64,000 nucleotides of DNA from Protofrankia sp. CiT1. Its GTDB lineage: Bacteria; Actinomycetota; Actinomycetes; Frankiales; Frankiaceae. Below are positions 4,303-8,129 of this stretch, piece after piece (positions within the stretch are counted from its first letter, which is position 1; every line of letters begins with the position of its first letter). The position numbers and the translations under genes were made by a program. Where the stretch lies: assembly GCF_917627385.1 (NCBI RefSeq), contig NZ_CAKJTL010000050.1, forward strand, positions 1-64,000, written 5' to 3'. The notes beneath the pieces are model-generated. The model ran no database searches. It had not been told where the DNA came from and was given only the letters and a program-made list of their open reading frames with translations.

Positions 4303-4535
4303 ACGCCGACTGTAGTCGTTGCGTATCGTCATGAAGAACTTTGAAAAATGTTTTTTGTCCGCTTTCATATGTATGTGGTACTAATAGTCTGATTCATTGC
4401 TATGAACGCTGTTCGCTATGATTTGCCGTGCTGAGTGAGGTGCCGCTCGGTGGGCTGATCGGTGTGCCGTGGGAGCGGCGCGCGTGGCGGCCGTGGGGCG
4501 CGCGCCTGGGGGCCGGCTTTCCATACCATCTGGCC
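4303..4535. promoter_or_regulatory. Divergent intergenic region, AT-rich by local standards
   Basis: The interval between the divergent phosphorylase and mutase genes holds a stretch at about 4310-4425 rich in A and T (for example gaaaaatgttttttg), in strong contrast to the flanking genes. It probably carries both promoters. No operator palindrome stands out. The mutase frame stays open upstream of 4536 to 4428, but those codons look non-coding. Confidence 0.5.
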
Positions 4536-6116
4536 ATGAGCGAGCGTCTGTCGGAGTCCGGTCAACCGATCAAGCCGGTATACGGCGCGTCTGATTTTTC
4601 TGGGGATCTACCGGCGCGTCTCGGCGCCCCCGGTGAGTACCCGTTCACGCGGGGTGTCTACCCGACCATGTATACCGGCAAGCCGTGGACGATGCGGCAG
4701 TATGCGGGCTTCGGCACCGCCAGGGAATCCAACGAGCGCTACCACTCGCTTGTCGCCGCCGGCACCGGCGGGCTTTCCGTCGCCTTCGATCTGCCCACCC
4801 AGATGGGCTTCGACTCCGACGAGCCGATCGCGCATGGCGAGGTCGGGAAGGTCGGTGTGGCGATCGACTCGATCGAGGACATGCGGGTGCTCTTCGCCGG
4901 TATCCCGCTGGACAAGGTCTCCACGTCCATGACGATCAACGCGCCCGCGTCGGTACTGCTGCTGCTGTACCAGCTCGTCGCCGAGGAGCAGGGCGTCCCC
5001 GGTTCGAAGATTACCGGGACAATCCAGAATGACGTCCTCAAGGAATACATAGCGCGCGGCACCTACATCTATCCGCCGGCACCGTCGTTGCGGCTGGTGT
5101 CGGATACCTTTGCCTACTGCCGCAACGAGATTCCCAAATGGAACACGATCTCGATTTCCGGTTACCACATGGCCGAGGCCGGGGCGACCCCCGCGCAGGA
5201 GATCGCGTTCACCCTCGCCGACGGCATCGCCTACGTCCGGGCGGCGATCGAGGCCGGGCTTGCGGTCGACGAGTTCGCCCCGCGGCTGTCGTTCTTCTTC
5301 GTCTCCCGCACGACCCTGCTGGAAGAGGTGGCGAAGTTCCGCGCCGCCCGGCGCATCTGGGCGGACGTGATGAAGAACACCTTCGGCGCGACCAGCCCCA
5401 AGTCGATGATGTTGCGGTTCCACACCCAGACCGCTGGCGTCCAGCTCACCGCGCAGCAGCCCGAGGTCAACCTCGTCCGGGTCGCGGTGCAGGGCCTCGC
5501 GGCCGTACTGGGCGGTACCCAGAGCCTGCACACGAACTCCTACGACGAGGCCATCGCCCTGCCCACGGTCAAGGCCGCGACGCTGGCGCTGCGCACCCAG
5601 CAGGTCCTCGCCTATGAGACGGACATCACCGCTACGGTCGACCCGTTCGCCGGCTCCTACGCGGTCGAGGCGCTGACCGACGAGGTCGAGAACGCCGCCC
5701 GTGAACTGATGGAGCAGGTCGAAAAGCGCGGGGGAGCGGTCGCCGCGATCGAGCAGGGCTACCAGAAGAGCGAGATCGAGAACTCCGCGTACGCGGTCAT
5801 GAAGGGCATCGAGGACGGCTCCCGCACCGTGGTCGGCGTCAACCGGTTCCGTGCCGAGCAGGAAGAACACTACGAGCCGCTGCGGGTGGATCCGGCGATC
5901 GAGGCAGACCAGTCCGCCCGGCTGGCCAGACTGCGTGCCGACCGCGACAACGCTGAGGTGACGCGCTGTCTGGACGCGCTGAAAGCCGCCGCGCAGGGGA
6001 CGGAAAACGTCCTTTACCCGCTCAAGGAGGCCCTGCGCGCTCGCGCCACCGTCGGAGAGGCCTGCCACGCCCTGCGGGCGGTCTGGGGGGTGTACCGCCC
6101 CGCCGACGCCTTCTAG
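4536..6116 (+). CDS. Methylmalonyl-CoA mutase large subunit, catalytic barrel only
   Basis: Adenosylcobalamin-dependent acyl-CoA carbon-skeleton rearrangement, linking propionyl-CoA to succinyl-CoA. From ATG 4536 (MSERLSES) it is 526 residues: the substrate-binding TIM barrel with [32 protein letters not shown], and [21 protein letters not shown]. The cobalamin-binding DxHxxG domain is absent, as in split-subunit enzymes, so a small B12-binding partner must be encoded elsewhere. By alignment from memory, the tyrosine in PTMY and the arginine in EYIAR match Tyr89 and Arg207 of methylmalonyl-CoA mutase; isobutyryl-CoA mutase has Phe and Gln there. That favours methylmalonyl-CoA. Upstream in-frame codons from 4428 look non-coding. 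The acyl-CoA carboxylase genes at 18.8-22.8 kb could supply its substrate. Confidence 0.88.
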
Positions 6117-6129
6117 CCCCGCCGGGCGC

Positions 6130-6213
6130 GGGGGAAACCCTGGCGGTGTTTCTCGTCGCCTTGCAGGCCCTCCGGGCATGCGGCGGCTCCTCGGCCTTGC
6201 CAGGTTTCCCCCC
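6130..6213. terminator. Hairpin-forming inverted repeat downstream of the mutase
   Basis: gggggaaaccctggc at 6130-6144 pairs, with one slipped base, with gccaggtttcccccc at 6199-6213, just past the mutase stop. A third copy of the left arm core, gggcgcgggggaaacc, appears near 6231-6246. There is no T-run, so this is a possible intrinsic terminator or decayed repeat. Confidence 0.45.
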
Positions 6214-6275
6214 GCATCCCGGCGGTTGTGGGCGCGGGGGAAACCCCGACGGCCGGGGGTCCGGGGCTCATCCCG

Positions 6276-6343
6276 GCGTCCTTGTGATACCTACAGGGCT
6301 GTTTGGTATCACAAGGACGCGCCAGTGGTAGGTAAGTATCACT
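6276..6343. repeat. 68-bp direct repeat, copy 1 (3' side of the Fic gene)
   Basis: Identical over 68 bp to 7542-7609. It contains a perfect 16-bp inverted repeat, gcgtccttgtgatacc and ggtatcacaaggacgc, around a 13-base loop, followed by ggtaggtaagtatcact. The Fic stop codon (6341-6339 on the minus strand) falls inside its last bases. Confidence 0.95.
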
Positions 6344-7520
6344 CGATCATCGTGGGCTGTGGGGACGAGGCCGGGCGACCATCGATCGCCTGGAGGATGC
6401 CGTTCGCGACGAACAGACGGTTGCGGGTACGGCCGGGCAGCTCCGTGAGGATTTCGGCTTCCACCAGTTTCGCGACGTTCAGGCTGGCGGAGCGGTGCGT
6501 CACGTCGAGGATGCGCCGAGCCCGGCTGACGGTCAGCGCCGGGATCTCGAACAGGGCGTCCACCAGTACCGCCAACAGCGCGGACGAGCGTGCGGTACCG
6601 ACCCGGGCGCGGTAGTCGTCCCGCAGAGCCTGCAGTGTGGCGGAACGCCATACCGCGTCCCGGGCCTGTTCGGCGACGCCCCGAAGGAAGAAGCCCACCC
6701 AGCCGGGCCAGTCTCCATGGGTGGAGACCCGCAGCAGGCGAGCATAGTACTCATCGCGCCGCGGTTCGATCCAGGCCGAGATGTCCAGCAGCGGGGTGTT
6801 CAGCAGCCCCCATTCGGCCAGCAGCAGGACGACGAGGAGCCTGCCGACGCGGCCGTTGCCGTCGAGAAACGGGTGGATCGCCTCGAACTGGTAGTGCGCG
6901 CAGGCAATTGTGATGAGCGGTGGCAGGCCGTCGTCGGCATGCAGATGTTTCTCGAACGCGTCCAGGCATTCCCACAACCGCTCGGGGGGCGGCGGGACGT
7001 AGGTTGCGTCGTCGAGGGTGCAACCGGGCGGCCCGATCCAGGTCTGACTTCGCCGAACGTCACCAGGAGTGGCGTAGTTGCCGTGGACGTCGCTCAGCAG
7101 GACGGCATGTGCCTCCCGTAGTAGCGACACGCTCAGGGGGAGCCGGCGGTTCGGGTCGAGGACGTGTTCGGCTGCTGCCACATAGTTGAACACCTCCCGG
7201 ACGTCGTTGTCCTCGTCGTGGGCTGGTCGGTCCGCCTCGAACAGGACCAGATCCGACACGGACGCCTGGGTGCCCTCGATCCGGCTGGACAGCACGGCTT
7301 CCCGGCGGATGAGGGCGCGGGCCAGCAGCCGTGGGTTCGGCAACGTCCGGCCGGCGCCGGCAAGTTCGCCCAGCGCGCGGTCGGCCTCGGAGAGCAGGCC
7401 GATCAGGGGCCGGTCGAAGGCGAGCGCGGGCGGCAACGGTGGTGGGAGGAAGGCGAGGTAGTCGCGTTCGGCCCGGACGATGTAGCCCGACTGCTCAGGA
7501 GCGAAGGAGCCGCGTCGCAC
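6339..7520 (-). CDS. Fic-family AMPylase-like protein with C-terminal winged helix
   Basis: Predicted to transfer AMP, or a related nucleotide group, to a target protein. The 393 residues contain an N-terminal Fic_N region, the active-site motif HPFLDGNGRVGR in the Fic core, and a C-terminal winged-helix segment (LTVSRARRILDVTHRSASLN). An SSRIEG sequence at about residues 78-83 matches the class II inhibitory motif (S/T)xxxE(G/N), so the enzyme probably carries its own autoinhibitory helix and needs no separate antitoxin. The winged helix suggests DNA binding or autoregulation. The gene lies exactly between two identical 68-bp repeats; copy 2 occupies the promoter position and copy 1 contains the stop codon. 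No toxin or antitoxin partner gene is visible. Confidence 0.9.
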   Translation of the reverse strand: MRRGSFAPEQSGYIVRAERDYLAFLPPPLPPALAFDRPLIGLLSEADRALGELAGAGRTLPNPRLLARALIRREAVLSSRIEGTQASVSDLVLFEADRPAHDEDNDVREVFNYVAAAEHVLDPNRRLPLSVSLLREAHAVLLSDVHGNYATPGDVRRSQTWIGPPGCTLDDATYVPPPPERLWECLDAFEKHLHADDGLPPLITIACAHYQFEAIHPFLDGNGRVGRLLVVLLLAEWGLLNTPLLDISAWIEPRRDEYYARLLRVSTHGDWPGWVGFFLRGVAEQARDAVWRSATLQALRDDYRARVGTARSSALLAVLVDALFEIPALTVSRARRILDVTHRSASLNVAKLVEAEILTELPGRTRNRLFVANGILQAIDGRPASSPQPTMIE

Positions 7521-7541
7521 TGGTACTCACCTACCGTCCCA

Positions 7542-7609
7542 GCGTCCTTGTGATACCTACAGGGCTGTTTGGTATCACAAGGACGCGCCAGTGGTAGGTA
7601 AGTATCACT
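7542..7609. repeat. 68-bp direct repeat, copy 2 (upstream of the Fic gene)
   Basis: Identical to 6276-6343 and 22 bp before the Fic start. Besides the internal 16-bp inverted repeat, the adjoining DNA at 7519-7536 holds a divergent version of the repeat's gtaggtaagtatcact end in the opposite orientation (gtaggtgagtaccagt on the minus strand). An operator for the Fic winged helix is possible. Confidence 0.95.
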
Positions 7610-7730: not shown

Positions 7731-8129
7731 ATGCGTCTGAGACCGGTGCGGACGGTCGGGCCGCCGGCGGTTCCGCTGGAGCCGGGGGAGTTCACCGAGG
7801 TCGTGCTGCGCGGCCGGCTCACCGCCCCGTCCGGGCCGGGGGCGCTGACCGCGCGGGCCGAGCGGTTCATCGGCCACCGCCTGGGGACGTCCCGCTGGAT
7901 CCTGCTCACCACCCGGCGGTTGTTGGTTGTCGCGCCCTTCCCGGTCGAAGGCGACTACTTCGATGTCGCCTTCGACCGGCGGGTGCTCTCGGCGTCCCAG
8001 GGGCGTAAGCACGGAGAGCTGATCACGGTGGACCTGACGACCCCGGCCGGCCGGCAGGTGCTGCGGGTGCCGGCCAGCCTGCGCTCCGAGCTCTCCCGTT
8101 TCATCCGTGCCCTGCGCCGCCCTCGTTAG
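7731..8129 (+). CDS. Small PH-like domain protein of unknown function
   Basis: A 132-residue soluble protein with an alternating beta-strand pattern and one amphipathic C-terminal helix (ASLRSELSRFIRALRR). TSRWILLTTRRLLVVAPFP resembles the central strands of bacterial pleckstrin-homology or GRAM-like domains, in which a TxxRL turn is common. I cannot name a specific family. ATG at 7731 follows a weak purine-rich stretch. It precedes aspS in the same orientation with a gap of about 150 bp, so co-transcription is possible but not shown. Confidence 0.6.
   Translation: MRLRPVRTVGPPAVPLEPGEFTEVVLRGRLTAPSGPGALTARAERFIGHRLGTSRWILLTTRRLLVVAPFPVEGDYFDVAFDRRVLSASQGRKHGELITVDLTTPAGRQVLRVPASLRSELSRFIRALRRPR

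Follow-up and report, generated by a model that had tools for sequence, protein, structure and literature searches.

Several Fic proteins have been described that resemble the one considered here. In Yersinia pseudotuberculosis, the helix-turn-helix (HTH) of the Fic protein CccR exerts autorepression via an inverted repeat (PMC9755527). EcSofic is toxic when leaky, and a small antitoxin of 47 aa, AS1, is encoded downstream of it (PMC12249575). CbFic2 of Coxiella burnetii binds DNA; the protein was tested on random DNA, nonspecific binding is discussed and the authors state (in 2023) that DNA binding had not been demonstrated for SoFic (PMC10628234). In searches of one open-access library, judged mostly by listing entries, no description of SoFic operators or of operator-flanked Fic genes was recognised.

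The window, i.e. the whole stretch of 64,000 nucleotides that was analysed, carries a SoFic-like Fic gene between two identical 68-nt direct repeats. The repeat is quite probably the operator/promoter of this self-repressing gene, duplicated on its 3' side, and crossover between the two copies could delete the gene. We infer that Fic itself would bind the repeat and, by analogy with the proven Fic autorepressor CccR, that it would repress its own transcription. The window Fic resembles CccR as a predicted class II Fic with a C-terminal HTH, the promoter of the gene holding an inverted repeat in both cases (PMC9755527). The half-sites of CccR are AGATAATCAT separated by N26, whereas those of the window Fic are GTGATAC with N14/15; moreover, CccR is a secreted effector, unlike the window Fic, and the excerpted report makes no mention of a 3' operator copy such as the window Fic has (PMC9755527). 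With SoFic and EcSofic (PDB 3eqx, 3zcn), the window protein shares the Fic_N-Fic-CTD architecture, the inhibitory motif and the predicted fold (PMC12249575), at about 30% identity to SoFic. EcSofic has the antitoxin AS1, whereas no conserved counterpart was seen at the window Fic locus: a 52-aa open reading frame is present at 6113-6271, but there is no room for it in the congeneric genome G003, where about 30 nt separate the neighbouring mutase gene from the repeat. The EcSofic account, in the portion at hand, is silent on DNA binding by the CTD (PMC12249575). CbFic2 is likewise a class II Fic with a winged HTH and is among the fold matches (8cil); nonspecific binding is discussed for it in the sections available, whereas a specific, conserved operator is predicted for the window Fic (PMC10628234).

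A SoFic-like class II Fic protein

The Fic gene occupies 6339-7520 on the minus strand and encodes 393 aa from a GTG start. Pfam detects Fic_N (93.5 bits) and the Fic domain (69.8 bits), and the PADLOC SoFic model matches at 352.9 bits, a score given without the model's own cut-off. The NCBIfam SoFic equivalog NF046030 scores 173.7 bits against a curated cut-off of 550, and the protein is thus a relative of this equivalog and not a member. The AlphaFold2 model (mean pLDDT 89.8) was compared using Foldseek with known structures; the best fold matches are SoFic structures and a Mycobacterium marinum Fic, followed by 7xux and CbFic2; 3zec, 3zcn and 3eqx match at TM 0.76-0.79. The model places a C-terminal winged helix at residues 314-371 (6408-6581, minus strand), with a recognition helix at residues 342-354 (HRSASLNVAKLVE) that begins HRSASLN.

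The catalytic motif HPFLDGNGRVGR (residues 216-227; 6840-6875, minus strand), of the HPFxDGNGR type, falls in invariant alignment columns. The inhibitory motif SSRIEG (residues 78-83; 7272-7289, minus strand) has S78, S79, I81, E82 and G83 invariant in the alignment and fits [S/T]xxxE[G/N], which we take to be the definition of the class II motif. Catalytic and inhibitory motifs are both intact and, with the Fic_N and Fic domains, the modelled winged helix and the SoFic fold, they mark the protein as a SoFic-like AMPylator of class II whose C-terminal part is predicted to form a winged helix. The gene probably encodes an anti-phage enzyme with a presumed role in defence. A phage sequence collection returned no match; 152 plasmid records matched at E up to 1e-40.

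The repeat pair and its history in the genus

A recount agrees with the initial annotation on two identical 68-bp copies at a spacing of 1266 bp and on the perfect stem of 16 bp in both. R1 (6276-6343) and R2 (7542-7609) are in direct orientation, the inner inverted repeat of each is complementary at 16/16 positions around a loop of 13 nt, and an extended comparison (6271-6343 with 7537-7609) matches at 72/73 nt. R2 stands on the promoter side of Fic and holds three half-sites: A, GTGATAC (7602-7608, minus strand), at -88 from the start codon; B, GTGATAC (7572-7578, minus strand), at -58; and B' (7550-7556, plus strand), facing B, at -30. A degenerate fourth half-site, A' (7520-7526, plus strand), overlaps the first base of the GTG start and lies outside the duplicated part. 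R1, at the Fic 3' end, contains B' (6284-6290, plus strand), B (6306-6312, minus strand) and A (6336-6342, minus strand); this last half-site overlaps the Fic stop codon, TGA (6341-6339), which lies inside R1. The 68 nt thus comprise A, B and B' without A', and the 3' copy is therefore a partial operator. One copy had been placed at the promoter and the stop codon in the other: the former stands, and the latter is true of the window's species only, the stop lying outside the repeat in both other Fic-bearing genomes, G003 and G004 (read by eye).

Further copies were sought in the window's own genome (G000; 5.02 Mb, 191 contigs), as had been proposed, and full-length copies are confined to R1 and R2. 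Weaker minus-strand matches fall on R1/R2 themselves and are palindrome-derived. The dyad pattern likewise occurs in the 5.0-Mb genome at R1 and R2 only (backwards control, 0). Identity over 68 nt at a single locus is far beyond chance. An assembly artefact is disfavoured because two congeneric genomes have the same layout with diverged copies.

The left neighbour is a methylmalonyl-CoA mutase-like gene (4428-6116, plus strand) and the right neighbour a gene for a 132-aa protein (7731-8129, plus strand) that belongs to no Pfam/NCBIfam family and is conserved in all five genomes compared. Between the mutase gene and R1 lies a GC-rich element (6117-6275). Contigs C158 and C172 of G000 together hold four copies related to it (75-81%), and most of the element is missing in G003. 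Fic stands between operator copies at the same locus in three genomes of the genus, G000, G003 and G004, which makes the duplication older than the divergence of these species. In G004, a third, decayed copy adjoins the promoter copy, with two of its three half-sites altered. Over 66 columns, the copies within a genome are 98.5% identical in G000, 93.9% in G003 and 83.3% in G004, and orthologous copies between genomes are 84.8-92.4% alike. The copies of G000 and G003, not those of G004, appear to have been homogenised recently. The identity had been ascribed to recent duplication or constraint; recent duplication was abandoned since all three Fic-bearing genomes have both copies. Recombination between the copies could homogenise them, and could also delete the whole gene and leave one hybrid operator, because they are long, alike and in direct orientation.

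A strain with one copy and no Fic, which the initial annotation suggested looking for, was found in G002. This genome has no Fic ortholog, and a single repeat copy sits at the corresponding position, flanked by the mutase gene on one side and the 132-aa gene on the other; the mutase gene of G002 is 97.4% identical to that of its sister G004. The 20 informative columns of its copy read 11111113333333331333, where 1 and 3 denote likeness to the outer-left and outer-right copies of G004, and the lone 1 among the later columns is a site where the right copy of G004 has a change of its own. With columns taken as independent, 20 of 125,970 arrangements are equally good. The solo copy of G002 thus has the composition expected after one crossover between outer direct repeats, which lends support to the recombination-mediated loss proposed at the outset. 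The combination set against the initial annotation, i.e. many unrelated copies and no strain devoid of Fic, was not encountered. The Fic ortholog is missing from G001 as well; the repeat can be read there at its right end, and a stretch of N (L134 3027-3172) lies exactly where its left part is expected. The incompleteness of these genomes (88% complete for G002 and 81% for G001) counts against the preferred reading.

In G010, from the next genus, the gene that comes after the mutase gene is related to the 132-aa gene at 36% identity (matched at E 9e-5 and missed at a threshold of E 1e-5). This locus is devoid of Fic and of any half-site, and Fic therefore most likely arrived on the branch to the present genus. 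Within the genus, a FastTree species tree from one gene (supports 0.99, 0.92 and 0.89), with which the small neighbour gene agrees, has the topology ((G002,G004),G001),(G000,G003). Fic is present in both subclades, and parsimony on this single-gene tree counts two losses as equal to two gains. For G002, deletion is favoured over integration, a direction that is inferred from other evidence than the junction, which alone fits both. Two points favour loss: within the genus, Fic has diverged (83.6-85% DNA identity) in step with the genes on either side, and an operator lacking its gene would be an improbable state to start from. Programmed excision is unsupported.

Alternatively, the gene could shuttle: Fic would leave as a circle with one operator and integrate homologously at a solo operator, G002 being an empty receptor site. 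This is unlikely in our estimation, albeit the best placed of the alternatives. Had a circle integrated at a single repeat, the hybrid pattern would be the same as after excision, the hybrid solo copy thus fitting both, and parsimony is tied at two events either way. Long direct repeats also flank other SoFic-like genes, in 6/81 cases vs 1/1310 shifted windows and, in a second count, in 9/76 Fic windows vs 7/731 shifted windows. However, a per-locus recount gave 9/76 vs 5/85 (p 0.26), and 3/9 repeat-flanked loci also have repeats in the control windows. Besides, Fic protein identity of 82-85% within the genus fits vertical descent, the nearest Fic homolog outside the genus is at about 66%, no such circle was seen, and the flanking repeats at loci L107, L060 and L094 are devoid of operator. 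At five loci (L107, L094, L060, L138 and L071), SoFic-like genes lie between direct repeats of about 100-500 nt. Operator copies on the 3' side were also considered as a trait of the whole family, and dismissed: at L107, L060 and L094, which lie outside the genus, the flanking repeats end upstream of the operator.

The candidate operator in related Fic genes

The preferred reading, a duplicated operator of the Fic gene itself, draws on homologs from other bacteria. In unrelated bacteria, related Fic genes have the core dyad GTGATAC-N15-GTATCAC as well, and its distance to their start codons is near-constant. RTGNTAC and its inverse, with a 14- or 15-nt spacer, were found 5' of Fic in Jiangella, Amycolatopsis, Longispora, Nocardia and others (a Nocardia farcinica record has a matching dyad, by eye), and the dyad also accompanies this Fic subfamily in a Nitrospirae genome. 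Of 90 loci, the 86 with at least 43% identity were scored for perfect 7-nt dyads with a 14-nt gap, the other four being dropped: 26 loci have one upstream vs 3 downstream, and the shuffle mean is 0.9. The arms are often TTAT followed by five variable bases in this homolog set. A sigma-70 promoter scan gave 0 hits.

The upstream dyad was compared with the recognition helix in 80 of the 86 homologs, the other six having translations from the assumed start that were too short. A strict dyad (RTGNTAC-N13..16-GTANCAY) precedes 13/14 homologs with HR at positions 342-343 vs 1/66 without (Fisher 6e-13, uncorrected for kinship, which inflates the test because 3/14 HR homologs belong to this genus). 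Below 58% identity, the counts are 2/2 HR vs 1/65 non-HR homologs. Among the 14 HR homologs, the half-site pair begins, relative to the start codon, at -57/-58 and -30/-31 in 12, a half-site at 0 overlaps the start codon in 6 and all four half-sites (-88, -58, -30, 0) are present in 4. General covariation between half-site and recognition helix is weak. In a partial Mantel test, 7/2000 permutations did as well and another protein segment scored higher; a stricter version, using 41/80 homologs, gave 342/5000. General covariation was set aside on account of Mantel results that were weak or led by other segments, and the HR/GTGATAC association alone was used. Further points against the preferred reading are the unlike operator of CccR and the nonspecific DNA binding discussed for the relative CbFic2.

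In the proposed mechanism, the native operator would consist of the four half-sites around GTGATAC (A, B, B' and A' at -88, -58, -30 and 0), and the C-terminal winged helices of a Fic dimer would bind the B/B' dyad. Bound Fic would repress its own transcription, so that levels of a potentially toxic AMPylator stay low; the second operator copy, 3' of the gene, stems from an old duplication. Of the options raised by the initial annotation, duplicated operators for the Fic winged helix fared best, given the conserved dyad, its fixed placement and the winged-helix model. At L135, in another genus of the family, a 48%-identical Fic has tandem dyads of the ACTTGTCGG type 200 nt upstream, which suggests a different operator in that subfamily.

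The repeat might instead be the operator of another regulator, a reading that the weak Mantel results would suit and that we hold to be slightly less plausible still than the shuttling of the gene. The dyad accompanies Fic genes of this subfamily in unrelated actinobacteria as well as in a Nitrospirae genome, and in G000 it is confined to Fic; a separate regulator would therefore need to travel with Fic, having no other target. The perfect stem, together with one terminator-like match (plus strand, opposite to Fic), could also speak for an RNA element, the 16-bp hairpin acting as a terminator, attenuator or riboregulator of the fic mRNA. This is very improbable and was rejected on pair counts: several copies have lost outer pairs of the stem, covariation is not above that of shuffles, and homologs keep the half-sites and not the longer stem. 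Over seven copies (the decayed third copy of G004 being left out), 0/21 half-site columns vary vs 16/42 other columns (p 0.0006). As a structure, the hairpin lacks conservation among the aligned copies, and outside the half-sites it decays with no compensating changes. Least credible of all is mobilisation of Fic by a MITE pair or another repeat of transposon origin, which the direct repeats on both sides of a single gene, each with a hairpin inside, might suggest: it was ruled out by the restriction of copies in G000 to R1 and R2, no transposase-like ORF lies beside Fic between the repeats, and operator function would account for the sequence in homologs devoid of the 3' copy. The mobile or excisable cassette envisaged earlier, understood as a dedicated element, fails likewise, with neither a transposase nor an integrase between the repeats and no further copies elsewhere in the genome.

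The control of SoFic, an anti-phage toxin encoded by a single gene, is not settled, and a conserved operator of fixed placement suggests a testable role for the CTD in many phyla. The locus would illustrate, with a concrete example from nature, that a defence-type gene can be lost or gained when copies of its own operator cross over, and operator copies around Fic offer a simple route to lose or regain the gene. More broadly, and doubtfully, SoFic-type AMPylators may be widespread self-repressing toxins with a shared operator geometry (arms 14-15 nt apart), the operator doubling here as a recombination site and the gene being losable, perhaps regainable, as an operator-bounded cassette. If true, a costly defence made up of one gene would thereby have a genetic off-switch. 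On plasmid pVV8 of Thermus thermophilus HB8, a laboratory strain (L153 2339-3553), a SoFic-like gene lies between a helicase gene and a DUF1156 gene, in what is possibly a defence cluster.
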